Virus record (IMG/VR): IMGVR_UViG_3300006121_000020
Span: 1 to 38,026 of that record
Length of the DNA: 38,026 bases
From: a virus
Reading direction: 5' to 3' (one strand)
Shown here: piece after piece, positions 3,962 to 37,611 of the stretch
How the letters are laid out: the number at the start of each line of letters is the position of its first letter
Numbering within the stretch: the stretch's first letter is position 1
The notes under the pieces: model-generated
What the model saw: only the letters and a program-made list of their open reading frames with translations
The model's database searches: none
Told to the model about the DNA's origin: nothing
Translations under genes and position numbers: made by a program

Positions 3962-4120
3962 ATGTTAACGTTAGAAGAACTAAAAGAGAAGTTAGCAGAA
4001 CAGATTGATGAGATTACTCTTTTAGATATACTGGGTATTACATCTTATGACCTTGTTGAAAGGTTTGAAGATATAATAGAAGATAAATTTGAGAAACTAG
4101 AGAAAGAAATAGATGGCTGA
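3962..4120 (+). CDS. small acidic helical protein
   Basis: A 52-residue frame (MLTLEELKEK...) starts one base after the DUF3310 stop and overlaps the start of nrdJ by eight bases. It is rich in Glu, Lys, Leu and Ile. Residues 1-20 and 30-50 look like amphipathic helices separated by a short GITSYD turn, suggesting a helical hairpin that may oligomerise. The tight packing on both sides and the AT-poor reading frame support it as a real gene. Function is unknown. Confidence 0.65.
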   Translation: MLTLEELKEKLAEQIDEITLLDILGITSYDLVERFEDIIEDKFEKLEKEIDG

Positions 4121-6005
4121 TAAACTCAGTGATTATGGACGCTTTATCCATAAAAGTAGATATGCTCGGTACTTAGAGTCTGAGCAACGTCGTGAGTCAT
4201 GGGAAGAGACTGTAGCAAGGCTAATGGTTTATGTACAATCTAAAGTACCTGAGTTAACCACAGATCCTGTTTATAAAGATAAGTTAATTGAGTTACATAA
4301 TGCTATTCTTAATTTAGAAGTTATGCCTAGTATGCGTCTTTTAATGACTGCAGGTGAAGCATGCGAAAGAGATAACATCTCTGCTTACAATTGCTCTTAC
4401 CTTGCTATTAATAATAAACGAGCTTTCTCTGAAGCTCTTTACATACTAATGAACGGAACTGGTGTGGGATTCTCTTGTGAACGTCAAGAGATTAATAAAC
4501 TACCTACACTACCTGATAAATTTAGGGAGGTAGATGATGTTATTGTCGTTGGTGATTCCAAACTCGGATGGGCCAAGGCCTTTAAAAAGCTTCTGTCATC
4601 ATTGTGGGAAGGAGACATCCCAAAGATTGACTATAGTAAAATTAGACCGGCCGGGTCCAGACTTAAAACATTCGGTGGAAGAGCTTCGGGTCCAGATCCA
4701 TTGCGAAAGTTGTTTAACTTCACACTCGAATTATTCAAGCAAGCTGCTTCGAGAAAACTTAATTCTTTAGAAGTACACGATATTATGTGTATGATTGGTG
4801 AGATTGTAGTAGTAGGTGGTGTAAGACGCTCTGCTCTAATCTCTTTGAGTAACTTAACAGATAAAAGGATGCGAGATGCAAAATCAGGAGCCTGGTATAA
4901 CGATCACCCTTACCGAGGACTTGCCAACAACAGTGTGGCCTATACCGAAAGACCCGATTCTGAAACTTTCATGGAAGAATGGCTCGCTTTGGTTAAGTCC
5001 AAATCAGGTGAACGAGGAATCTTTAATCGTGTTGCTTCTCAGGCTCAAGCAGGAAAATGGGGGAGACGAGATCCGCTTCTCAGCTATGGCACCAATCCAT
5101 GCTCAGAAATTATCCTCCGTGATAAACAGTTCTGCAATCTTACGGAAGTGGTTGTACGGGGGAACGATACCGAATCTACCTTGGCTCATAAGGTGTCCCT
5201 CGCTACAATACTCGGTACAATTCAGTCCACTCTCACCAGCTTCCAATTTCTAAGTGAGGAATGGAAAAAGAATACTGAAGAAGAAAGATTATTAGGAGTT
5301 TCATTAACAGGTATCATGGATTGTAAAGTAACTAATAATCCTGATCCAGCAATGCTTGAAAGGTTAAGAGATGCAGCGAGAAAAACAAACGAAGAACTTT
5401 CTGAGGTCCTTGGTGTTCCTCCTAGTGCTTCTATCACTTGTGTTAAACCTTCAGGTACAGTCAGTCAGTTGGTGGATAGTGCTAGCGGCATTCATGCTAG
5501 ACATAACACTTACTACATTAGAAGGGTTCGCATTGATAAGAAGGACCCTGTATACTCGTTCCTTAAGGAAAAAGGGTTCCCAGTGGAAGACGAAGTATTT
5601 AGGCCTGATTCGACAGCTGTATTCTCGTTTCCTGTAAAAGCCCCTAAGGGTGCTGTTACTAGAAATGATATGACTGCACTAGAACAATTAAACTTATGGT
5701 TAGTATACCAAAGACATTGGTGTGAGCATAAACCTTCAGTTACTATTACAGTAACTGATAATGAATGGCCTGAAGTTGGTGCATGGGTATGGAAACACTT
5801 TGATGAAGTATCAGGAATTTCATTCCTTCCTCATTCAAACCATACTTATCAACAAGCACCATATGAAGATATTACTGAAGAGCAGTATAAAGAATTAGCA
5901 TCTAAAATGCCAAGCTCACTCAATTGGGAAGAGTTGGTAGAACGTGATGATAATACAGAAGGAAGCCAAACCCTTGCGTGTGTTGGCGGAACGTGTGAGA
6001 TATAA
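4113..6005 (+). CDS. nrdJ: adenosylcobalamin-dependent (class II) ribonucleotide reductase
   Basis: This 630-residue enzyme makes deoxyribonucleotides for phage DNA synthesis. It resembles the monomeric class II enzyme (RTPR type). C94 (AYNCSYL) and C341 (QFCNL) match the reducible pair. NPCSE (C330, E332) carries the thiyl-radical cysteine and active-site Glu, and the end CVGGTCEI (C623, C628) is the shuttle cysteine pair. An N-terminal MPSMRLLMTAG segment also fits. It needs adenosylcobalamin, so the host must make or import B12. The start overlaps the previous small gene by 8 bp. The middle of the gene (about 4540-5630) is richer in G+C and in CGA, CTC, TCC and GGG codons than its ends, suggesting an internal recombined segment. 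Confidence 0.95.
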   Translation: MADKLSDYGRFIHKSRYARYLESEQRRESWEETVARLMVYVQSKVPELTTDPVYKDKLIELHNAILNLEVMPSMRLLMTAGEACERDNISAYNCSYLAINNKRAFSEALYILMNGTGVGFSCERQEINKLPTLPDKFREVDDVIVVGDSKLGWAKAFKKLLSSLWEGDIPKIDYSKIRPAGSRLKTFGGRASGPDPLRKLFNFTLELFKQAASRKLNSLEVHDIMCMIGEIVVVGGVRRSALISLSNLTDKRMRDAKSGAWYNDHPYRGLANNSVAYTERPDSETFMEEWLALVKSKSGERGIFNRVASQAQAGKWGRRDPLLSYGTNPCSEIILRDKQFCNLTEVVVRGNDTESTLAHKVSLATILGTIQSTLTSFQFLSEEWKKNTEEERLLGVSLTGIMDCKVTNNPDPAMLERLRDAARKTNEELSEVLGVPPSASITCVKPSGTVSQLVDSASGIHARHNTYYIRRVRIDKKDPVYSFLKEKGFPVEDEVFRPDSTAVFSFPVKAPKGAVTRNDMTALEQLNLWLVYQRHWCEHKPSVTITVTDNEWPEVGAWVWKHFDEVSGISFLPHSNHTYQQAPYEDITEEQYKELASKMPSSLNWEELVERDDNTEGSQTLACVGGTCEI

Positions 6006-6164: not shown

Positions 6165-6311
6165 ATGAACTTCGCATCAATCGTAATTAACAAGGTAGAC
6201 AATGGTTATGTAGTTAACGTACAGAAGACTACGTTTGGTCAGGAACGACCTGAGCAAACTATTAGTGTGTTTACCTCGTTTGATGACGTACTAGCCTATA
6301 TCAAGGGCTAG
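6165..6311 (+). CDS. short hypothetical protein, last gene of the left plus-strand block
   Basis: A 48-residue frame with a strong AAGGAG site upstream of its ATG at 6165. It is predicted mixed beta/alpha (MNFASIVINK..., ending FDDVLAYIKG) with no recognised domain. Its final 11 bases overlap the 3' end of the convergent lysozyme gene, so no room is left for an intergenic terminator. The ribosome binding site makes it a good gene candidate; function is unknown. Confidence 0.7.
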   Translation: MNFASIVINKVDNGYVVNVQKTTFGQERPEQTISVFTSFDDVLAYIKG

Positions 6312-6744
6312 TATTTCCCTCAAAGAGCGCAGCCTCTTTAAGTCGTCTTTGGAGAATTGCATCAGATTTGTGCCCGCCAGCAAAATCCCACTTAAGCAGT
6401 TCTCCTTTGACGGCTTCTTTTTTGCCCGCATTAAGAACCTTCAATAGTGTTGACTTTTGAAAGTTAGCACCACCTACATTAAACGTAAACGATACTAACG
6501 CATCAAACTCATTCTGAGTTAATGGTACTGTAACATACTTGTTAACAAAGTACTCAGCCTTCTCGGCTATATCTATAGCTAACAATGCTACAGCTTCTAC
6601 AGATGATATAGCACCAAAGTGTTCACCAGGTAATATAAGGTGTCCATATCCTATAGTTAGTAGTCCTGCTATATCCTTATAAGGAGTAGCACTAAACCCT
6701 TCAAACTTCTTAATTAAATCTATACCTTGTTGTGATGTTTTCAT
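6301..6744 (-). CDS. endolysin, GH24 (T4-type) lysozyme
   Basis: This 147-residue muramidase hydrolyses peptidoglycan for host lysis. The T4-lysozyme-type triad E-x8-D-x5-T is at E15, D24 and T30 (KKFEGF...YKD...GLLTIGYGH). The later conserved stretch FDALVSFTFNVGG and a final Q-RR segment also fit GH24. There is no signal peptide or SAR-like anchor, so release must rely on a holin. It is the promoter-distal gene of the minus-strand late block. Its start overlaps the previous stop by one base, while the holin-like genes lie more than 12 kb upstream. Confidence 0.95.
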   Translation of the reverse strand: MKTSQQGIDLIKKFEGFSATPYKDIAGLLTIGYGHLILPGEHFGAISSVEAVALLAIDIAEKAEYFVNKYVTVPLTQNEFDALVSFTFNVGGANFQKSTLLKVLNAGKKEAVKGELLKWDFAGGHKSDAILQRRLKEAALFEGNTSP

Positions 6745-7118
6745 TAGGTAGCCTGTGTTTGAGCAGTTAATATACCATTAGTAAATGTCATACTACCATT
6801 AGTACCACCAGTGGTTAGTTTAGCTGTTGTTATAGTAACAGTTAATCCATTAGTAGGTATGTTTATAACATTATTATATTGATCTTGACTTAGATGGTAG
6901 TATTGAGTACCAGATGAATCTCCACCTTGTAATCCTTGTAGACTATTGTGTTGTCTAATTTGAATTGCTGTAATATTAGAACCAGTAAAGTCAATGTTGT
7001 TCCATAGGTTAGGAGCATTCTGACCTCCTACTTGTTGATAGAGTTTAAAGAACCAGTCTCTCCACTCATGAACTTCACCAATAGGTTGTGGTGGTATAGG
7101 TGATAAAGGGGTAGCCAT
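6744..7118 (-). CDS. structural/fibre-like protein with HNSLQGLQGG motif
   Basis: This 124-residue protein has a Pro-rich N-terminus followed by a Trp-rich EWRDWFFKLYQ helix. The middle HNSLQGLQGGDSSGTQYYHL resembles a motif I know from phage fibre and neck proteins. The C-terminal half is Thr/Gly-rich beta sequence. It probably forms a small virion component. One-base overlaps with the ATP-grasp gene upstream and the lysozyme downstream show tight coupling. Assignment as structural is by motif and composition only. Confidence 0.65.
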   Translation of the reverse strand: MATPLSPIPPQPIGEVHEWRDWFFKLYQQVGGQNAPNLWNNIDFTGSNITAIQIRQHNSLQGLQGGDSSGTQYYHLSQDQYNNVINIPTNGLTVTITTAKLTTGGTNGSMTFTNGILTAQTQAT

Positions 7119-8431
7119 TATTCGTACCTAAACTCTCTGCAATAGCCTAGTTTATGTAGTTTTGGTAGTTCTTCTTCTAGACGTTCACCAACGTCGTCGC
7201 GAACAATCATTGCACTAGGTATCTCAATCTTCTTAACTACTTCCATAGACTTCTTCGTAGCTTCTCGTACCGAGTCACCAATACCAGAAGTAACCAACAC
7301 ATAATCACCAGCGGTAACAAACATTTCTGTTTCTGTAAATTTACCATCTTCGTATATAGGTCCTTTCCCTAACATTACTTCACATAAATGTACATCATCT
7401 CCACACTTCTCTAAGTTATAGATAGGAAATCCACTAGGATCTCTACCAGTAACTTTAGTGAATGGGAAGTCCGGTATAGCTACAATATGACCAGCAGCTA
7501 TCTTAGTAGAAGCTTTAAGAGTGTCCTTACCTTCTAAAAGGTCACACATCCATTGTATAGAGTCACCCTTATGTAGTGCTGCTTGGATATTAAATAGAGG
7601 CCATCCTGGTCTTGTAGTCCATTCTAGAGGTCTTGGTGAGCCTTTATCATCAATGATGAATGCAAGGTCTACATAACCAATGTAGTTTTGGAATCGTAAG
7701 AACTCCTCTAGCTTCCCTAGAGTCTCATCAAACAACTTAGACTTTTCTGTATACTTTAATACAGTACCCATCTCACCAGTGTTTACACCAAAATTAGATG
7801 GCATTAGTTTCTTAAACTCAAAGTTCTCACATCTGAGTTTACTAAAGCCATCCTTGCCCATCCATGCACCCACTGCTACTTCAATACCTGGAACAAACTC
7901 TTGCATGATGAAAGGCATTTTAGACTTACCTTTAGACTTCCATCTTTCTAACATGAATAACATGTCAGCTGCATTCTTAGATACATAGCTTAATGCTTTG
8001 TCTGCATCACCAGAAGGTTTAGATACATAACGTTTAGGGTTAGCTTTAACGTACGCAATAGCGTCATTATAGTTCTTAAACTCTTGTCCAGGAATTACAT
8101 CAAGACCTGCTTTCTTCATAATGTCTTGACCTTCACCTCTACGTAACTCAAGGTAAGATGTATCGAGGTTAGCTCCTACAATAGGATAACCTTCTCTGTG
8201 GTACTTCTCAAGGAACTGCATTTGATATGCATTGTCAGATAGTACAATGATATCAGCCCACTTCATAAATGCTTGCCAGTTTAGTACACGAGTTACAATA
8301 CCCTTACCTATAAGAGATTGCTCACCGTTAGGTGTTTTCTTTTGCCATTGTTTAACTTCATGGCCATCACACATAAGTCTAATAGCAAAGTCTGTAAAAG
8401 CTCCCATAGGATCTAATAATAGGACTTTCAT
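7118..8431 (-). CDS. PurD-like ATP-grasp protein (divergent phosphoribosylamine-glycine ligase)
   Basis: This 437-residue protein follows PurD along its length. It has a Rossmann-like start, a lysine-containing ATP-grasp strand (YVSKPSG, K138), the PurD-type NTGxMG motif (218-223), an E-x3-R-x-G metal/ATP segment (E270, R274) and a late RDDVG motif (411-415). PurD joins phosphoribosylamine to glycine in purine synthesis. Here the N-terminal GSGGREHA phosphate-binding loop is replaced by DPMGAFTD, and the Asn of the E-x-N-x-R segment is Thr. The substrate may therefore have changed. It lies at the end of the virion gene block, four bases overlapping the giant ejection protein, rather than with nucleotide genes. 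Confidence 0.8.
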   Translation of the reverse strand: MKVLLLDPMGAFTDFAIRLMCDGHEVKQWQKKTPNGEQSLIGKGIVTRVLNWQAFMKWADIIVLSDNAYQMQFLEKYHREGYPIVGANLDTSYLELRRGEGQDIMKKAGLDVIPGQEFKNYNDAIAYVKANPKRYVSKPSGDADKALSYVSKNAADMLFMLERWKSKGKSKMPFIMQEFVPGIEVAVGAWMGKDGFSKLRCENFEFKKLMPSNFGVNTGEMGTVLKYTEKSKLFDETLGKLEEFLRFQNYIGYVDLAFIIDDKGSPRPLEWTTRPGWPLFNIQAALHKGDSIQWMCDLLEGKDTLKASTKIAAGHIVAIPDFPFTKVTGRDPSGFPIYNLEKCGDDVHLCEVMLGKGPIYEDGKFTETEMFVTAGDYVLVTSGIGDSVREATKKSMEVVKKIEIPSAMIVRDDVGERLEEELPKLHKLGYCREFRYE

Positions 8432-18973: not shown

Positions 18974-19312
18974 TTAAAGTTCTTTCGGGTCCCAGCCATA
19001 CAAAGTGGCTATCTTGTTAGTAAAGTTAAAGAAGTTTTTGTTATGTAACTCATATCTCTTGCCTTGCAGATATAAGATCATATGAACCATCTCATGAACT
19101 AACGTCCGTTGGATTGTATCTAAATGACCACACCTTGCAGTGCTCATTGTTATTGCATGAGGTTCTGGTTGATATTGTCCATACATATCTGGATCATTAA
19201 CAATCAACCATTCTATCTGAGACGCATGAGGCAGTGTATACTTATCAAAGGGTGGAAGATTACAAAACATCTTGTACATCGCCTTTAATGTATCCACTGT
19301 CACTAAGGTCAT
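18974..19312 (-). CDS. SprT-like zinc metallopeptidase domain protein
   Basis: This 112-residue protein contains TLVHEMVHMILYLQG, with the HExxH motif at H73, E74 and H77. A third likely ligand is H90 in YELHNKNF, the SprT/spartan spacing. The size equals a stand-alone SprT core without the extra zinc ribbon. In cells this fold cleaves DNA-protein crosslinks (SPRTN) or has unknown roles (SprT). Here it is sandwiched between two membrane genes, overlapping one by four bases. A role in lysis, virion maturation or trimming DNA-bound host proteins is possible; none is shown. Confidence 0.78.
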   Translation of the reverse strand: MTLVTVDTLKAMYKMFCNLPPFDKYTLPHASQIEWLIVNDPDMYGQYQPEPHAITMSTARCGHLDTIQRTLVHEMVHMILYLQGKRYELHNKNFFNFTNKIATLYGWDPKEL

Positions 19313-26499: not shown

Positions 26500-27420
26500 T
26501 TAAGGACCGTTAACACCCCAGATTGCTCTAGGATCTGACCAGCCGAAGCTGTAACGTTCGTAACCTTTTGCCTTAGCATTCATAGTATCGAAGTCATTGT
26601 CTTGGTCAAATTGCATACCAATACGTTCATAGTACTTCATACCTGTTTTGCCAGGGATTGTGTTACGGATAAACCAAGCATTTGGTGATGTTAAGTAATG
26701 ATTAACTTTGAAGCCACCTGGAATGTAGTTACCAGATTTGATCACGTTAATGTCATTGTTAGCATTACCAGTTTGGTATGATGAATGTAAAATGCGTTGT
26801 GCATTGAACACTTGTTGACGTGGGATAATCAATGTTTTAGGCATGATATTGATTAAGAGACCACGGTCGTTTTGTAGACCCATGATTGCAATGATAGCAT
26901 CTTCTAGAGCTGCTTCAGACAAGTCAACATCAACTGTTGGACGGTTAGCCCATGTACCACCTGATGTATTTGGGTGTGCTGTGTTAGCTAATGAAACAGA
27001 ATCGCCACCAACATATGAACCTGAGAATGCACGGTTGTATACGTTAGCTGCAACGTTTTCTTTCGTTTGACGGAAAGACATAGCTAATGCTGCTGCACGT
27101 TTACGTGACACTTGCTCATATAAGTTATCATCTAACTCTTCTTTAGTTACAATGTAACCAAGAGCATAAGCAACGTGTGTGTAACGTGTTGTAAAGCCTT
27201 GAACTTCTGAATCGTACTGTGTACCAGCACCTTCAGGTTTTTGTGGTACTAAACCAAAACCTGTAAGTTGTACATCTTCTTCGTAGTTCATTGAAGAGGT
27301 TTCTGAATCAAAAAGATCAGTATACTCTACTTGGTGTTCGTCATATGTTTGACCCCACCATTGTTTGATCCCTGGCCAAAGAGCCTTAGGATGTGATGCT
27401 GTGGTAATTAAACCCGCCAT
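26500..27420 (-). CDS. major capsid protein
   Basis: This 306-residue protein is probably HK97-fold. Diagnostic stretches include VTKEELDDNLYEQVSRKRAAALA (spine helix region), the AHPNTSGGTWANRP loop, MPKTLIIPRQQVFNAQRIL and NAWFIRNTIPGKTGMKYYER, seen in capsid proteins of many podoviruses. The gene follows portal, co-chaperonin, scaffold and two small head genes in proper order. Its stop is followed by a GC-rich stem-loop, and codon use is clean, both typical of a highly expressed gene. No large cleaved N-terminal domain is present; scaffolding is encoded separately. Confidence 0.92.
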   Translation of the reverse strand: MAGLITTASHPKALWPGIKQWWGQTYDEHQVEYTDLFDSETSSMNYEEDVQLTGFGLVPQKPEGAGTQYDSEVQGFTTRYTHVAYALGYIVTKEELDDNLYEQVSRKRAAALAMSFRQTKENVAANVYNRAFSGSYVGGDSVSLANTAHPNTSGGTWANRPTVDVDLSEAALEDAIIAIMGLQNDRGLLINIMPKTLIIPRQQVFNAQRILHSSYQTGNANNDINVIKSGNYIPGGFKVNHYLTSPNAWFIRNTIPGKTGMKYYERIGMQFDQDNDFDTMNAKAKGYERYSFGWSDPRAIWGVNGP

Positions 27421-29439: not shown

Positions 29440-29766
29440 CTAATCTTTCTCGTGTGTTGCCACAACGTCTAAGTCGTTTATAATTCTATACTCTTTACCA
29501 TCTTTAGTTTCATTACCTTTATAGATGAGTCCTGAGTACTTACCAAAAGTAATGAAGTCTCCAATCTTACACCATGGATCTTTTTGATCTCCATAGCAAG
29601 TTGAACCCATCGCTACCACTGTACCACGGATCTGGGCTAACTGCTCCCTGTCCTTTTGTTGGCCTACAGATATGATAATACCACTCTCGGATACTTCTTC
29701 TACTTCCTCAGGTAATACTAACAATCTATGACCAACGGGATTAATACCGCTAGTATTTATTGTCAT
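29440..29766 (-). CDS. GroES-like co-chaperonin (Cpn10)
   Basis: This 108-residue protein fits the Cpn10 fold: NPVGHRLLVLPEE at the start (GroES: PL-x-DRVLV), a mobile-loop equivalent VEEVSESGIIIS, GTVVAMGSTCYG, KIGDFITFGKYSG and a final strand EYRIINDLDVVA. GroES caps GroEL; the phage copy would modify host GroEL so that the large capsid protein folds, like T4 gp31. It sits between portal and scaffold, overlapping the upstream small gene by 17 bases. The mobile loop has the hydrophobic GIII tripeptide needed to bind GroEL. Confidence 0.85.
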   Translation of the reverse strand: MTINTSGINPVGHRLLVLPEEVEEVSESGIIISVGQQKDREQLAQIRGTVVAMGSTCYGDQKDPWCKIGDFITFGKYSGLIYKGNETKDGKEYRIINDLDVVATHEKD

Positions 29767-29974
29767 CTCTCGCTCCGTTAACTAAGTCTTCATATGTTAA
29801 GTCTAACAAATGAAGTATTGCGTTACATCTACCTTTTGCTTCTTCTACATTATCCACGTTACCGCGGACAATCATTTCTTTCATGTACTCTCTATCTTGG
29901 CGTAATGCCTTGAAGAGGGTTTTGGTTACTAAATTGTCCTTCCATTCCTGGAATTCCACCGGTGTTATCACCAT
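29750..29974 (-). CDS. small helical protein overlapping the portal gene
   Basis: A 74-residue acidic helical protein (VEFQEWKDNLVTKTLFKALRQDREYMKE...). Its ATG at 29974 lies inside the portal gene, in a different frame, with 83 bases of shared sequence. It has its own GGAG site about nine bases upstream. I recall the pattern EFxEWKxNLVTKxLFKALxxDRE from podovirus genes at this position, with no known role. Possibly a head assembly factor. Confidence 0.7.
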   Translation of the reverse strand: MVITPVEFQEWKDNLVTKTLFKALRQDREYMKEMIVRGNVDNVEEAKGRCNAILHLLDLTYEDLVNGARDDNKY

Positions 29975-31955
29975 CTTTACTATCTCCTATATCTTTAAGT
30001 ATCTTAATAGATTCAATTAAACCCTGTTGATGGAGTTTAGCTGCTCCTATTTGTGCTTCAATCAGAGCAATCTGATGTCCATCTTTTACACCATCAGCTT
30101 GTTCTGCAGCAAGTAATGCTTCAGCTTCAAGTTTAAGAATCTTAGCTTCATTAAGCTGAGCATCCTGCATAAGTTTAGCTGCACCAAGTTTAGCTTTAGT
30201 TTGAATGTCTTGAGCCTTGGTTTGAGCTTTAATTTGTTCCACTTGTACTTTAGGATTAGGTGGAGGTGGTACTGCATTAGGACCTTGTGGGTCTGGGTAT
30301 ATCTCATCAATGTTAGTAACTTTAATTGCTTCTAAATATCTCTTATTAACTGCATACAAGTTAAAGCCTGGTGAAGTCATTGATACTTCCCTTAGGGCTT
30401 GTGCTTGCATTAGTTTCTGAGTTTCAGTTACTACATGTGGATCAGCAGATGGTCTTAACATATCTGGTGATGGTCGGTAATCCGACGCTAATGCAACTCC
30501 TAAACTATATTTATGTTCACTAGGTAAGTACAACTGATTAAGTCTGTAAATCTTTCTAAACTCTTCTTTAAGGGATCTGTAAATACGTTTAAAGATACCT
30601 TTGAATACTGTGTTACCTTGATCAGCCATCATCTGTGCTGTTTGAGCTGGTGTATTCTGACCTACGTTCTCACCTACCATAATATCGGTAGCACCTACAA
30701 TACGTTCACCATAGTTTACTAGTGTAGTAAGCAACGTGTACAACACTTGGCTAGGTTCTCTAACAGGGAGAGGTACGATTCCTTTTGCGAGATCTTCACC
30801 AGTGCTATCAACATGCTTCCACTCAAGAGGAGCAAAATTGTAGTTACCACCACGAACTTTAATACCTCGTGATAAGAAACCACCTGCTGTTGTAGCCATA
30901 GTACCAGCATCAATAAGCTGATTAATAATAGTATCAATAGATTCATTTAATGGTCCTAAAAGAATACCAAAACCAATATCATAGAAACCACCATCAGGTG
31001 ATGGAATAAATGAATACTTAGTAAAATAGGTTTCAGGTTTAATACTAATGATCTCATCATCGTTATTACGTTTGATGGATGTCTCAAAGTAGTTAGCAAC
31101 AATACGAACTACTTTATTAGTTTCTCTGTGAACTGTAATGATGTATGGCTCTTTAAAACCATCACCATCTAAGTCTTCCCAACGATGTTGTTCAAGGAAT
31201 TCATAAGGAGTTCCTGGATCTTCACTGTTTACATACACACCTTGAGCTCTATCTTGTGTTACAGATAGGTCATCTTGAGGTAGTAGGAGTGGACGAGACA
31301 GGTCTACGTCAAGCCACATACCCCTTCTCTGTCTACTAAGTACATCATTGCTGCTTAAGTATAACATGTGTGTCATACGTGTGCAGTCTGAGAGGTTCTT
31401 TGTCCAATAAGAAACTACAAAATCTTTAGCTAAAATATTCTCTGATACTGGATGTTCTTCATCAAAATCCCAATAGGTCTTTTTAAAAGCACAACCAACG
31501 ATAGGCACTGTAATAAGTACCTTATCCATTTCAGATTCCCAGCTCTCATCTTCTTCTAATACTTGGTAAGACATATGTTTTTCAATACGCTTAGCCTTTT
31601 CAATTACTTCAGGGTTAGAATCTTTACCAGATGCTACACCCATTCTAACGATGTCACCAGCTGGTATTAATGCTGGGTAAGCTCTACTATGGAACTGTAA
31701 AGCTGCAATTGTAATTAAAGGAAACTTAACGTTAGAAGCACCAGACCATGGGAATGATTTAGCTTCTGCAACTTGTAAAGCAAGCTTCATAGCTTCCTCA
31801 ACACGTTTCTCCCATTGACTACGAGACTGCTTGTCAATATTAAACTCTTGTACTACGTTGTAACCAATAGTGTTAAGTACACTTTCATCTAACATCTCAG
31901 CGATGTTAGGTGAAGCTAAGAGTTTTTCTATTTTAATTTTAACGTCTAGATCCAT
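29892..31955 (-). CDS. portal protein
   Basis: This 687-residue protein forms the dodecameric DNA gate at the capsid vertex. It has the podovirus-type sequence: SQWEKRVEEAMKLALQVAEAKSFPWSGASNVKFPLI at residues about 45-80, GCAFKKTYWDFDEEHPVSENILAKDFVVSYW, and FYDIGFGILLGPLNESIDTIINQLIDAGT (helix region lining the channel). The C-terminal part (about 560-650) is a long Ala/Lys/Gln-rich helix, the barrel or its equivalent. It follows the terminase gene with a 3-base gap. Confidence 0.92.
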   Translation of the reverse strand: MDLDVKIKIEKLLASPNIAEMLDESVLNTIGYNVVQEFNIDKQSRSQWEKRVEEAMKLALQVAEAKSFPWSGASNVKFPLITIAALQFHSRAYPALIPAGDIVRMGVASGKDSNPEVIEKAKRIEKHMSYQVLEEDESWESEMDKVLITVPIVGCAFKKTYWDFDEEHPVSENILAKDFVVSYWTKNLSDCTRMTHMLYLSSNDVLSRQRRGMWLDVDLSRPLLLPQDDLSVTQDRAQGVYVNSEDPGTPYEFLEQHRWEDLDGDGFKEPYIITVHRETNKVVRIVANYFETSIKRNNDDEIISIKPETYFTKYSFIPSPDGGFYDIGFGILLGPLNESIDTIINQLIDAGTMATTAGGFLSRGIKVRGGNYNFAPLEWKHVDSTGEDLAKGIVPLPVREPSQVLYTLLTTLVNYGERIVGATDIMVGENVGQNTPAQTAQMMADQGNTVFKGIFKRIYRSLKEEFRKIYRLNQLYLPSEHKYSLGVALASDYRPSPDMLRPSADPHVVTETQKLMQAQALREVSMTSPGFNLYAVNKRYLEAIKVTNIDEIYPDPQGPNAVPPPPNPKVQVEQIKAQTKAQDIQTKAKLGAAKLMQDAQLNEAKILKLEAEALLAAEQADGVKDGHQIALIEAQIGAAKLHQQGLIESIKILKDIGDSKDGDNTGGIPGMEGQFSNQNPLQGITPR

Positions 31956-31958
31956 ATT

Positions 31959-33470
31959 TTAATATCCTGTTACGCGAGAGCGTCCGTCGTTTTGTATTGA
32001 TTTAAGGGTTTTTTGGTACTCATATTCATCTTCTTCTTCAGGAGAGTCAGCGTTCTGTACTTGGTCTACAACCAAGCCTAACCATGATAATGCATCCACT
32101 TGGTCATCATGTCTTGCTTTAGGGAAGCGTACCATCTCTTCTTCTAAATCAGGATACCAAGGAGCACTCTTATCAAACTTAACACCACCTGCTTTAAACC
32201 TTGCTTGAAAACTTCTTGCTCTTGCTTGTTTATCTTTTGTAGGTGTCATAGGATATAAGTTCATATATACTTGACGATTGATTTGTTCTCGTCTTAATAT
32301 GGCACCAATAGCCTTTTCAATTGCACCCTTCTCAGTTACAAAGTACTGAGGGTCATACTTCTTCTGTACTGCAAACATCTCATCGACAATCTCTAGAGCA
32401 TCCCAACGACCTCTACGAATGTCTACAATGTTCATAATACCATCAGAGTCAATTCCGCCAATAGCAATAACAGTGTAGTCGCTACGATCTCTTGTAGAGA
32501 TAGCAAAGTCCACTGCAGCGTAATAAGTAAGTTTCTTTTCTTTATGTCTGATTGCATCTAATGTATGTTTTGGTATTTCAATAAAATCGTTACGTTTAAA
32601 ATAAGAAGTGGACTCATCAATAGGATAGTTTAAAAACTCCTGAGCATACACTTCTGGAATACCTTGCTTTGTGTAATCTTCTTTCTTATTTCTAAAGTAG
32701 TCTGCATCATACCTATCAGACCATAATATCTGTTGGTAGTCTTCAGAGTGTGCTCTATATCTTACACTACGCCATTCAACACGCTTACGTGTAGAATAAG
32801 TCTTTAATGGTTCTTTTTGTACATAGTCGCCATCATAGTCTGGTGGCATAAGTCTATTTAGTAAAGAGTCAAGATGTAGTATTGTTCCTACAATACGTAC
32901 AATACCATTCTGTGATCTAGAAGGTAATAGAGCAGCATAGAACCATCGTCTAAACTTCTCACGTCTATCTTTAGAAGCAACTTGTTCGTCACCTTCTAAG
33001 TCATCACAGATAATTAAATCTGGTCGACGTTGATCCCACTTAAGACCCCGAACTCTTTGCTCTGCACCACGAACTAAAACTCTAAACTGCTCACCATCTT
33101 GAAATTCTACAATGATGTCTGTTTGAGAATCTTTAACAAGTTCTTTAATTTGGAACAAGTTAATAAGATCATCGTTGTTTATTAGTTCATCTTTTAAATC
33201 ACTCAGAAAGTTAATTGCTTGACTTTCTGTATCTGAAACTATTAGTGCAAACTTTCTATCTCTAAATAAAAGAGCAGCGAGTAAGTAAGCATGAGTGATT
33301 GCAGTGGATTTCCCGTGGGCTCGGGGAGCTGCAATTGCTACTAATGGGTCGTCGCTGCAACAGAGATCCCACCACTCAAGATGGCATTGCGGAGTGGGGG
33401 TAGTTCCATCGTATCGTTTTGCTAAACATGCCCCGGTAAAACCGTGGATCATGTCTGGTGTTAATTTCAT
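31959..33470 (-). CDS. terL: terminase large subunit
   Basis: This 503-residue protein is the DNA packaging motor and headful or site nuclease. The Walker A-like motif APRAHGKST is at residues 48-56 and Walker B LIICDDLE at 152-159. An adjacent RVRGLKWDQRRPDL segment is typical of the phage terminase group. The RNase H-like nuclease residues are D321 (AAVDFAIS), E380 (VTEKGAIEK) and D455/D459 (RHDDQVDA). It overlaps the next gene upstream by four bases. Packaging type (headful or cos) cannot be decided from sequence alone. Confidence 0.95.
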   Translation of the reverse strand: MKLTPDMIHGFTGACLAKRYDGTTPTPQCHLEWWDLCCSDDPLVAIAAPRAHGKSTAITHAYLLAALLFRDRKFALIVSDTESQAINFLSDLKDELINNDDLINLFQIKELVKDSQTDIIVEFQDGEQFRVLVRGAEQRVRGLKWDQRRPDLIICDDLEGDEQVASKDRREKFRRWFYAALLPSRSQNGIVRIVGTILHLDSLLNRLMPPDYDGDYVQKEPLKTYSTRKRVEWRSVRYRAHSEDYQQILWSDRYDADYFRNKKEDYTKQGIPEVYAQEFLNYPIDESTSYFKRNDFIEIPKHTLDAIRHKEKKLTYYAAVDFAISTRDRSDYTVIAIGGIDSDGIMNIVDIRRGRWDALEIVDEMFAVQKKYDPQYFVTEKGAIEKAIGAILRREQINRQVYMNLYPMTPTKDKQARARSFQARFKAGGVKFDKSAPWYPDLEEEMVRFPKARHDDQVDALSWLGLVVDQVQNADSPEEEDEYEYQKTLKSIQNDGRSRVTGY

Positions 33471-34342: not shown

Positions 34343-34471
34343 TTATTTAATCTTTTTAGGTTTCTTAGGTTTAACAAGAATCTTAGCCTTCTTAACGTAA
34401 GACTGCTTCTTTTCTTTCTTAGGTTTAGTACCCGTTAAACTCTGAGGGTTTGTCGCTGTCGATATTGCCAT
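34343..34471 (-). CDS. 42-residue Lys-rich protein, overlapping terS
   Basis: The frame MAISTATNPQSLTGTKPKK... starts at 34471 inside the 3' part of terS in a different frame (47-base overlap) and has an AGAGGA site eight bases upstream. The last 28 residues are almost half Lys and include KPKKPKK near the end. Its composition matches its neighbours in the small basic gene run. Too short to prove, but ribosome site and context support it. Confidence 0.6.
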   Translation of the reverse strand: MAISTATNPQSLTGTKPKKEKKQSYVKKAKILVKPKKPKKIK

Positions 34472-35078
34472 CGTTAATGTCCTCTTGTTGAATTGTAGAA
34501 GCTACAGCTTCCACTTCTTTAGCACTAGCAAACTTCTCAAATTGAGAAGCTAGTAACTTAAGCCTGTCGTCTACTGCAACTTTGTTTGTGATACTAGTTG
34601 GTTCACCCCTGACTAGTTGTCTACGGTTTACCAAGTTGTTAAATAGGTTTGAGAGTACTTTAGTGTCAATTGGTTTACGAACCAAGACACTCTTACGTAC
34701 ATCCCAAAGATAGTCTCCGTTTTGGAGACGTTCTTCAATCTCTGTTAAACTCTTATCGAGTACACTACTGATTCTAGAACCGAGCTTCTCGTTCTGCTCG
34801 ACGTACACTTTCTTTTGAATTTCAACCCACCAGGGTTCTTCTTTCCATTCCCGTATGTACTTGATAGGAACGTTTGTAAGTTTAGATACTTCGTCTAAGT
34901 CACCATAGACGCAGTAAAGAGTGCAAGCGTCAATCTTAGTTTGCTGAGGAAACCATTCCGGAGCATGATGTTTAGCTTTGAGGGGTCTTCCACGACGTGG
35001 AGTAGTTGATATTTCTTGACCATCTAAAAAATATCCACTTGACACTTCTTCATTCTTCTGATCTAAATCTTCACTCAT
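34425..35078 (-). CDS. terS: terminase small subunit
   Basis: This 217-residue protein is the likely DNA recognition subunit of the packaging motor. Residues 26-36 (TPRRGRPLKAK) contain an AT-hook-like RGRP core. Residues about 45-80 include a helix-turn-helix-like segment (ACTLYCVYGDLDEVSKLTNVPIKYIREWKEEPWW) typical of small terminases that pair a DNA-binding domain with an oligomerisation region. The rest is helical and acidic. Its ATG sits seven bases after a consensus -10 box, so the message may lack a leader. A GTG at codon 12 is a weaker alternative start. Confidence 0.78.
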   Translation of the reverse strand: MSEDLDQKNEEVSSGYFLDGQEISTTPRRGRPLKAKHHAPEWFPQQTKIDACTLYCVYGDLDEVSKLTNVPIKYIREWKEEPWWVEIQKKVYVEQNEKLGSRISSVLDKSLTEIEERLQNGDYLWDVRKSVLVRKPIDTKVLSNLFNNLVNRRQLVRGEPTSITNKVAVDDRLKLLASQFEKFASAKEVEAVASTIQQEDINDGNIDSDKPSEFNGY

Positions 35079-35084
35079 GATAAT

Positions 35085-35113
35085 ATTATATCATAAGAAT
35101 TTAAAAATGTCAA
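35085..35113 (-). promoter_or_regulatory. consensus sigma70-type promoter for the late block
   Basis: Read on the minus strand: TTGACA (35113-35108), 17-base spacer, TATAAT (35090-35085), with a TGA extended -10 just before TATAAT. Both hexamers are perfect consensus. The predicted start is about 35078, at or next to the terS ATG. It should be served directly by host RNA polymerase. Confidence 0.8.
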
Positions 35114-35133: not shown

Positions 35134-35205
35134 TTACTTGTTCATAACATACATAGTTACTTCAAAACCGAAACGTAGTTCGGTTGCAGCTGGAGTAGTC
35201 CACAT
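35134..35205 (-). CDS. pqqA: PqqA, PQQ precursor peptide
   Basis: A 23-residue peptide. It aligns without gaps to the known 23-residue PqqA (Klebsiella type): M1 W2, P5 A6, L10 R11, G13, E15 V16 T17, Y19 and N22 coincide. E15 and Y19 are the residues that the radical SAM enzyme PqqE crosslinks to build pyrroloquinoline quinone. PqqD binds the leader. The AAAGGA site lies six bases before the ATG. It has its own -10 box and a hairpin leader on the minus strand, between the late promoter and the divergent plus promoter. No other pqq gene is in the window, so the host must supply PqqB-E. It may boost PQQ for alcohol dehydrogenases, such as methanol dehydrogenase. Confidence 0.85.
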   Translation of the reverse strand: MWTTPAATELRFGFEVTMYVMNK

Positions 35206-35233
35206 AGTTTGTCCTTTCGTATATTAAAATATA

Positions 35234-35250
35234 TAAGCTCTTTAAGCTTA
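35234..35250 (-). promoter_or_regulatory. 5' leader hairpin upstream of pqqA
   Basis: TAAGCT (35234-35239) and AGCTTA (35245-35250) form a 6-bp stem with a 5-base loop. It would be the first structure of the mRNA started from the -10 box next to it, a position that often protects short messages from 5' decay. Confidence 0.45.
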
Positions 35251-35257
35251 CCATAAT

Positions 35258-35263
35258 ATTATA
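35258..35263 (-). promoter_or_regulatory. -10 box for pqqA
   Basis: TATAAT on the minus strand, 53 bases before the pqqA ATG, giving a leader of about 45 nt. The -35 candidate at 17-base spacing (ATGTTA) matches only three of six consensus positions, so the promoter may be weak, activated or phage-modified. Confidence 0.5.
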
Positions 35264-35322
35264 CTCCCCTTTTAAAAATATAACATGCGTATTTTCATGA
35301 AAAATATATAAGACAGGAATAT

Positions 35323-35352
35323 AATATATTTATCTTGACAAGATAATATATT
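35323..35352. repeat. near-perfect inverted repeat over the plus promoter -35
   Basis: AATATATT-T-ATCTTG (35323-35337), then a central A, then CAAGAT-AATATATT (35339-35352): 14 paired bases with one bulged T. It overlaps the TTGACA box of the plus-strand promoter, so it looks like an operator or a replication/terminator structure. Protein binding is inferred. Confidence 0.65.
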
Positions 35353-35363
35353 TATGTTAAAAT
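35335..35363 (+). promoter_or_regulatory. sigma70-type promoter on the plus strand
   Basis: TTGACA (35335-35340), 17-base spacer, TAAAAT (35358-35363, five of six consensus positions). The predicted start is about 35370. The transcript would cross the AT-rich segment and the hairpin-dense gene-free region, then perhaps the right-hand plus-strand genes. Confidence 0.75.
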
Positions 35364-35460
35364 CAATAATTATATATTAATAATAATATTTATATAGTAA
35401 TTATACTAATTAACTAATATATTAATATACTAATTAACTAATATTAATTAAGTAATCGAT
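35364..35460. other. extremely AT-rich segment, possible origin/unwinding element
   Basis: By hand count about 7-12% G+C over 35341-35460 (for example 4 of 60 G/C in 35341-35400). It lies between divergent promoters and beside an inverted repeat and direct repeats. No frame of significance is present. An AT-rich melting region of this kind is typical of phage replication origins, but that use is inference. Confidence 0.5.
35403..35444. repeat. 18-bp direct repeat, two copies
   Basis: ATACTAATTAACTAATAT occurs at 35403-35420 and 35427-35444, identical, with 24-base periodicity, followed by a partial third copy of the ATTAATTA motif. Two iteron-like copies in the AT-rich segment suggest protein binding sites. 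Confidence 0.75.
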
Positions 35461-35469
35461 TAGTACCTA

Positions 35470-36211
35470 ATCTATCCCCGACGTAATTCCCCCTCCGAGG
35501 ACGTAAGTCCGAGGTCTAATCCTAATCGTAGTTACCGAGGACCACTTAATAAGATCCCGTAATGAACGGTGTTCTTAATCAACTAGGCTTAATAGTAAAA
35601 TTTATATAAAATATAGTTGATAGCCATTCACACAAAACAATCCATTAGAGATTGCCTCCCCCGGCCCCCTAAAGGGGTCCTGAATGACCATTGTGTATAT
35701 TACTAATCATAGAGCCAAGGGGATTGAATGGTGTGCTATGCACCAATATAATAAATCAAACACTTACACAATAATAATTATTCATTTAATTCTACCTAGA
35801 CATACCTCTACAACGCACACAATCAATCTATAACGCACGATTATATTCTCAACGATATGTTGAGTCATGCCTTCGGCCTGCCTCGTTATTATACTTCTTT
35901 AACACCGTCCCGTTTCGCCGGGACATCACGACAACCTGAGTCAGGTTGAACACAATCAAACCCATCAGTGTCATATATCGAACACGACAAGTAGTCGTGT
36001 CCTCTTTTAAAGGTGTCCTTGTCCCGTCAAGGACCAAGACGGCCCCGTGATAACGAATTGTATCATACAAATCAAATCAACGATAAACCTGTTGATTCCT
36101 CCTCTAGCGTTCCGGCCGGGCTTTAAACGCAAACCACATGCCACCACTTTAGCCCGGTGACTTTGTATGAGTGAAAAAGTGCACACGGGGAAAACCTAGT
36201 GTGTTTATTTT
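35470..36211 (+). ncRNA. candidate large structured non-coding RNA
   Basis: No convincing gene lies in this stretch of about 740 bp. Some rows reach 50% G+C right beside a segment of about 10%. Many perfect stems occur in order: GGAC/GTCC with GTAA loop (35499-35510), CCGT/ACGG (35557-35569), CAATC/GATTG (35638-35654), TGGTG/CACCA (35729-35745), CTCAAC/GTTGAG (35848-35864), GTCCCG/CGGGAC (35907-35924), CAACCTGA/TCAGGTTG (35932-35948), ACACGAC/GTCGTGT (35982-36000), GTCCTTG/CAAGGAC (36015-36034), AATCAAC/GTTGATT (36075-36097), CCGGGCT/AGCCCGG (36116-36157). The plus strand is favoured by the upstream promoter and the GNRA-type loop. A weak CACAC/GTGTG hairpin plus TTTATTTT (36182-36211) may end it. 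Size and style recall large ornate phage RNAs such as GOLLD or ROOL; identity untested. Confidence 0.6.
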
Positions 36212-36233
36212 AAAACCTTTCAAGGAGTATCTT

Positions 36234-37230: not shown

Positions 37231-37611
37231 ATGGACATTAATCATTTAGATATTCAAATTACTTGTATGGCTACTGCTATATATGCAGAAGCTAATACAC
37301 AATCTAATGAAGCTAAATATGGTGTTGGTTATCTTATTCTTAATCGTGTCAAGAATGGTAATTTTGGTAAAGACATTTGTGAAGTTGTATATAAAAATGG
37401 ACAGTTCGAAGGTGTGCATGCTATAGTAACAAATAAACATTCATACCCTTCTAAATTGGACATGATTAATACAAAGTTGTTAGCGTTAAAAGTGTATACT
37501 CATAAAGTTATTAATCCAGTAGGTAAAAGTTTATACTTTCATGACGATTCAATATCGTCAATGCCTTGGGGTAAACGAACTACTAAGATTGATAACTTAA
37601 TTTTCTATTAA
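37231..37611 (+). CDS. SleB-type cell wall hydrolase (Hydrolase_2)
   Basis: This 126-residue protein follows the SleB/Hydrolase_2 pattern: ATAIYAEANTQSNEAKYGVGYLILNRVKNGNFGKDICEVVYKNGQFEG, with likely catalytic E20 in the IYAEA motif. Later LYFHDD, W.KR and a final NLIFY match the family's conserved end. SleB-type enzymes cleave peptidoglycan glycan strands. No signal peptide is seen. It is encoded in the early-type right block, far from the late lysozyme, so it may act in entry or superinfection exclusion or need export by a holin. It has an AAGGA site. Confidence 0.85.
   Translation: MDINHLDIQITCMATAIYAEANTQSNEAKYGVGYLILNRVKNGNFGKDICEVVYKNGQFEGVHAIVTNKHSYPSKLDMINTKLLALKVYTHKVINPVGKSLYFHDDSISSMPWGKRTTKIDNLIFY

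Follow-up and report, generated by a model that had tools for sequence, protein, structure and literature searches.

We found that the window, the whole stretch of DNA analysed here (38,026 bases, an entire viral record), contains what is, judged by family identity and by selection on its sequence, a genuine phage pqqA. We think it quite likely that a Methylophilaceae phage uses it as an auxiliary metabolic gene for the precursor only, replenishing the consumable of PQQ synthesis to keep the host methanol dehydrogenase working.

The pqqA frame and its setting in the phage genome

The pqqA frame (35134..35205, minus strand) has 23 codons and a stop; read from 35205 to 35134, it translates to MWTTPAATELRFGFEVTMYVMNK, with the stop after codon 23. 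The initial annotation had placed a PqqA frame here and had given no strand. The position stood, the strand proved to be minus, and the plus strand at 35134-35205 has no open frame. The assignment to PqqA also held. The 23-mer matched Pfam PF08042 (PqqA) at 41.4 bits (E 1.3e-10, profile positions 1-19 of 19; curated cut-off 21.1 bits) and NCBIfam TIGR02107 at 38.1 bits (E 9.6e-10, positions 1-21 of 21; curated cut-off 20 bits). That is, both scores were about twice the curated cut-off and covered the full length of the profile. None of the 14 control genomes had a match to the PqqA family, and PHROGs is without a PqqA family.

The residues previously listed as those known from PqqA (M1, W2, P5, L10, R11, G13, E15, V16, T17 and Y19) are all present. 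E15 V16 T17 M18 Y19 form the E-V-T-x-Y core, which is the same in relatives picked by their terminase large subunit (TerL; see below), and E15 and Y19, the pair cross-linked by PqqE, are both kept with three residues between them. The AAAGGA ribosome site noted earlier is indeed present as a Shine-Dalgarno sequence (35212..35217, minus strand), 6 nt upstream of the ATG. Every phage copy examined had a Shine-Dalgarno sequence: 23/23 in the TerL set, 7/7 in phage records and 120/120 viral contigs among the matches listed. Judged by the family scores and the conservation, a chance origin of the likeness to PqqA is excluded.

The surrounding genes are those of a phage, with terminase, portal, head protein, head closure, endolysin, DNA polymerase and ribonucleotide reductase all in the record. 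Minus-strand structural genes run from ~35.1 kb downward and plus-strand early genes from 36.2 kb, and pqqA opens the minus unit, at the point where early and late genes diverge. The next gene of this late unit (34425..35078, minus) encodes 217 aa; it occupies the position of a small terminase, has no family match and is shared with relatives. Farther down on the minus strand are TerL (31959..33470; phrog_38, E 7.9e-84), the portal protein (29892..31955; phrog_1216) and the major head protein (26500..27420; phrog_371). Viral genes therefore flank pqqA on both sides, the location expected of an auxiliary metabolic gene, and it has a metabolic-gene homologue in the host, the Methylophilaceae pqqA. 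As first proposed, this phage-borne pqqA comes without its partners: none of pqqB-E was detected in the window, nor was a quinoprotein dehydrogenase or any PQQ-enzyme repeat (PF13360). The usual pqqBCDE neighbourhood is thus absent at this pqqA; it is not obligatory, as host copies mostly stand alone too.

The window also encodes a phage Cpn10 chaperonin (29440-29766), a GARS-like ATP-grasp protein of purine synthesis (7118-8431), a ribonucleotide reductase of the B12-dependent type (4113-6005) and a SprT-like protein (18974-19312). Two wall-cutting enzymes, an endolysin (6301-6744, minus) and a Hydrolase_2 cell wall hydrolase (37231-37611, plus), lie in opposite units.

Methylotrophic hosts and a proposed supply of PQQ precursor

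The peptide itself bears out the earlier hint of a methylotrophic host, which appears to be of the Methylophilaceae type. GTDB genomes containing GFEVTMYVMNK had titles that mostly named Methylotenera, Methylophilus, Methylopumilus, OM43 or Methylophilaceae; a few said just Betaproteobacteria, Nitrosomonadales or uncultured bacterium. The commonest host peptides are also the commonest phage peptides, and the window peptide is identical to the commonest host peptide at 22 of 23 residues. A Methylophilaceae host for the window phage is supported indirectly, by the peptide and by relatives of other lineages.

One PqqA peptide is consumed for each PQQ made, and PqqB-E are catalytic and are reused. 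PqqD presents PqqA, PqqE links Glu15 to Tyr19, and a protease, PqqB and PqqC then act. The action of PqqE on PqqA is documented (PMC10906245, PMC9851590). Fifteen host genomes had from 1 to 12 copies of pqqA. Methylophilaceae hosts have been reported to carry 3-12 pqqA copies compared to typically one pqqBCDE (PMC4109929), and a PQQ producer with five pqqA copies has been described (PMC9851590). That hosts multiply pqqA and typically not pqqBCDE suggests that supply of the precursor is limiting for PQQ. Work cited in PMC7936290, in which overexpression of pqqA alone raised PQQ in Gluconobacter, fits with this. If precursor supply is limiting, then a phage with only pqqA could plausibly sustain PQQ and methanol dehydrogenase.

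The proposed mechanism begins with phage shut-off of host transcription, in which the short host pqqA messages would go first and PqqB-E would persist. The phage copy, transcribed from its own promoter and equipped with a 5' hairpin and a strong ribosome site, would be expressed during infection and would restore the consumable. Host PqqE would modify the phage peptide and host PqqB-E would convert it, and the higher PQQ would be maintained for the lanthanide or calcium methanol dehydrogenase. Continued methanol oxidation would pay for phage replication and could benefit the burst. A point against a supply role is that PQQ already in methanol dehydrogenase may outlive an infection.

It is unlikely, in our view, that PQQ is raised for some other use, as a redox protectant or through leakage to neighbours, and not for the methanol dehydrogenase of the infected cell. 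PQQ is soluble and is imported by other bacteria (PMC12124388). However, these genes go with hosts that are obligate or near-obligate methylotrophs, and this points to methanol dehydrogenase. Slightly less probable again is a decoy or inhibitor, that is, a phage peptide that occupies PqqD/PqqE or gives a different product, lowering PQQ or acting against rival phages. In its favor, the phage has no pqqB-E, and outside the core the phage peptides are more varied than those of hosts (50 distinct peptides compared to 12-17, the host set coming from a narrower pattern). In contrast, E15 and Y19 are found in all copies and the core is invariant, as it should be if the peptide is a good substrate; many phage peptides also match host peptides exactly. 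We favor supply of precursor for methanol dehydrogenase over both of these possibilities.

Distribution, selection and upstream sequences

The tblastn search put forward as a check found pqqA in cultured phages. Searching 50,697 phage records with the 23-mer gave 12 matches: nine Methylophilales isolate records, one uncultured spring phage and two Acinetobacter records. The nine isolate records represent five lineages, P19250A, Venkman, MEP301, MEP401/402 and Melnitz (four records), and the PqqA of P19250A is identical to the window peptide at 22 of 23 residues. The taxonomy also names MEP431-434 and a second Venkman, for which no record was found in the phage collection. pqqA is unannotated in the Methylophilales phage records or lies under an antisense hypothetical ORF. 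Antisense hypothetical proteins are annotated over pqqA in MW202481.1 (2067-2195) and in Melnitz MZ577097.1 (76100-76195), and these are probably misannotations.

The two Acinetobacter phage MD-2021a records (CAKLQF020000010.1 and CAKLQH020000055.1; L009 and L010) were rejected as cases of phage pqqA because they contain a bacterial pqqABCDE operon. One of them also has polyphosphate kinase, and both look like mislabelled bacterial contigs.

The pattern R[FY]GFEVTMY was found in at least 120 viral contigs of IMG/VR. Among the matches listed, all 120 viral contigs had a ribosome site in front of a complete ORF, 23-25 codons long, 119 shared proteins with reference phages and none had pqqB, C, D or E; the same probes were positive in 21 of 120 host loci. 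Only one IMG/VR contig had a PqqA of the alphaproteobacterial type (GMEVT[ST]YES), and phage pqqA of this type is therefore rare there. Four viral contigs (L337, L339, L340 and L341) had a PqqA of a different type, ending RLGFEVTMYFKN[RS], which points to phages that infect other PQQ producers.

We measured selection in relatives picked by TerL, without reference to pqqA. PqqA was present in 21 of these 48 records (22 copies), including 11 of the 13 contigs longer than 33 kb. For the 18 distinct genes, dN/dS was 0.043 (pS 0.60, pN 0.050), compared to 0.042 for host pqqA; the check on conservation suggested at the outset thus came out in favor of a coding gene. The viral set picked by pattern, a choice that in itself fixes the second half of the peptide, gave 0.089 overall; codons 2-11, mostly left free by the search pattern, gave 0.23. 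The TerL-picked set is free of that bias. From these comparisons we infer that purifying selection maintains pqqA as a coding frame.

Related phages that keep the DNA and break the frame, which the initial annotation named as evidence against it, were not seen; the frame was intact or cleanly absent. A relaxed scan over all viral loci, some of which overlap and many of which were picked via an intact core, gave 162 copies, all of which kept the start codon and had no stop within the frame. Among relatives of Venkman, MEP301 and MEP401 that had at least ~80% of the length of the type genome, 9/14 had pqqA. One near-complete contig without it, G088, has a TerL 95% identical to that of MEP401 and retains the flanking gene, with no trace of pqqA. 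Five other near-complete contigs (G067, G071, G079, G095 and G047) and the complete relative MW202796 are also without pqqA. Because pqqA is common and not universal, it is dispensable in some hosts or conditions. The clean absences and the lack of decayed copies indicate that it is gained and lost whole, and is intact where present.

The location of pqqA also varies. Within the clade of the window phage we found four sites. In the window, L251, L268 and others, pqqA heads the late unit; elsewhere it lies at the convergent end that follows the lysis region, within the replication module but oriented opposite to it, or after the head protein gene. One relative of the window phage (IMG/VR 3300011115_000265; G039, with loci L318 and L319) has two pqqA copies that differ from each other and lie at separate sites.

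It is extremely improbable that pqqA is a passenger, a stray fragment of the host genome that the phage picked up and does not use: host peptides are nearly identical (22/23) and a short, multi-copy gene is easily captured, but this reading is refuted by dN/dS of 0.04 at high synonymous divergence, by the lack of decay in 162 copies, by the Shine-Dalgarno sequence in every copy and by the five or more unrelated phage lineages that carry the gene. Just as improbable is conservation of regulatory DNA (a promoter, hairpin or site upstream of the late genes) and not of the peptide; pqqA does lie where the early and late units diverge, with a promoter on either side, but most changes are synonymous and at three other genomic sites the ORF also has an intact frame, and this codon-level selection and relocation refute it.

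The initial annotation gave pqqA its own -10 box, and this stood. The -10 box of the predicted promoter, TATAAT (35258..35263, minus strand), ends 52 nt upstream of the ATG and is conserved in clade copies; its -35 is weak (ATGTTA, 17 nt spacing). A -10 box was located 38-62 nt upstream of the ATG in 19/19 nonredundant clade copies, compared to 5.8 expected from shuffles. A predicted hairpin in the 5' UTR (GTAAGCT-TAAAG-AGCTTAT; 35233..35251, minus) begins 6 nt past the -10 box. The stem had at least 6 pairs in 17 of the 19 clade copies (6.4 expected), with 14 different 5' arms; that is, directly behind the -10 box the sequence of the stem varies and the pairing is preserved. The regions upstream of clade pqqA copies folded more stably than the regions upstream of other phage genes (mean z -1.70 vs -0.11, P = 9e-8, a value that is optimistic because related copies are not independent). 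This excess of structure extends beyond the clade, with a mean z of -1.20 in 111 viral copies compared to -0.11 in control genes. Outside the clade the -10 position was not clearly enriched (31 copies vs 26.5 expected), and so we claim the promoter layout for the clade of the window phage only. A search for TATAAT plus hairpin across the window gave many chance matches, and the hairpin claim therefore comes from the comparison of pqqA copies. A 5' hairpin close to the transcription start usually protects a message, and the predicted pqqA hairpin may do so.

There is a second predicted promoter between pqqA and the next gene (35085..35113, minus strand). It is a perfect sigma-70 type promoter, TTGACA-17-TATAAT with an extended -10 (12/12 matches), and is conserved in relatives. 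It ends 6 nt before the ATG (35078) of the next gene, and a transcript from it would start at or near the start codon and would be leaderless. On the other side of pqqA, ~1 kb between the divergent units (35206-36230) begins AT-rich and continues with several inverted repeats rich in GC, such as ACACGACAAGTAGTCGTGT (35982-36000). It is possible that this is an origin or control region. Searches of Rfam gave nothing credible at the pqqA locus and no match in 35206-36230.

Comparison with known systems

Methanol is a major one-carbon compound in the sea and in lakes, and Methylophilaceae are among the main bacterial methanol consumers in many waters. If phages commonly bring the PQQ precursor, then viral infection acts directly on methanol oxidation. 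We lean, with a little more confidence than doubt, toward a broader view in which pqqA is a near-hallmark of Methylophilaceae phages, a mobile cassette of promoter, stabilising hairpin and 23 codons gained repeatedly by unrelated phages, and in which supply of a consumable precursor, not of an enzyme, is a general viral strategy missed by gene callers for its small size. pqqA is among the smallest metabolic genes known in phages and went unrecognised in all the cultured methylophage records checked; other genes for precursor peptides may be overlooked likewise. Cultured phage-host pairs exist (P19250A, Venkman, MEP301, MEP401 and Melnitz), and the idea is therefore testable.

The initial annotation knew of no characterised phage pqqA. 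Viral pqqA had in fact been reported, in the metagenomic T4-like Lake Baikal virus VP_266 in 2020, together with methanol dehydrogenase (PMC7678222); in the literature found, none has been characterised experimentally. The same paper states that P19250A encodes none of the genes reported there (PMC7678222). Contrary to this, P19250A does encode PqqA, as detected by tblastn. Viral pqqA also appears in a reservoir study, which grouped it with phosphorus genes (PMC13188868). By contrast, pqqA goes unmentioned in the papers on Melnitz, MEP401/402, Venkman and MEP301, so far as their text is available in the open-access literature. What appears to be new here, by comparison of sequences and against the open papers searched (an earlier note elsewhere is possible), is the breadth over cultured and uncultured methylophages, the occurrence of pqqA without pqqB-E, the test of selection, the whole gain and loss, the movement between sites in a single clade and the conservation of promoter and hairpin.

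The window PqqA has the same cross-link residues as Methylophilaceae PqqA (PF08042 / TIGR02107) and stands alone like most host copies. It differs in being in a phage genome, in having L10 instead of the usual M10 and in having no pqqB-E in its record. VP_266 resembles the window phage in its viral pqqA, predicted Methylophilaceae host and proposed role, but has methanol dehydrogenase and radical SAM proteins named with PQQ synthesis, whereas the window phage is unrelated and has pqqA alone. The cultured phages P19250A, Venkman, MEP301, MEP401/402 and Melnitz encode PqqA like the window phage but belong to other lineages. Cyanophages carry photosynthesis genes (psbA and others), an analogous supply of a short-lived part of the energy machinery of the host. 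For the window phage, the part supplied would be a peptide substrate that is consumed, and not a protein subunit.
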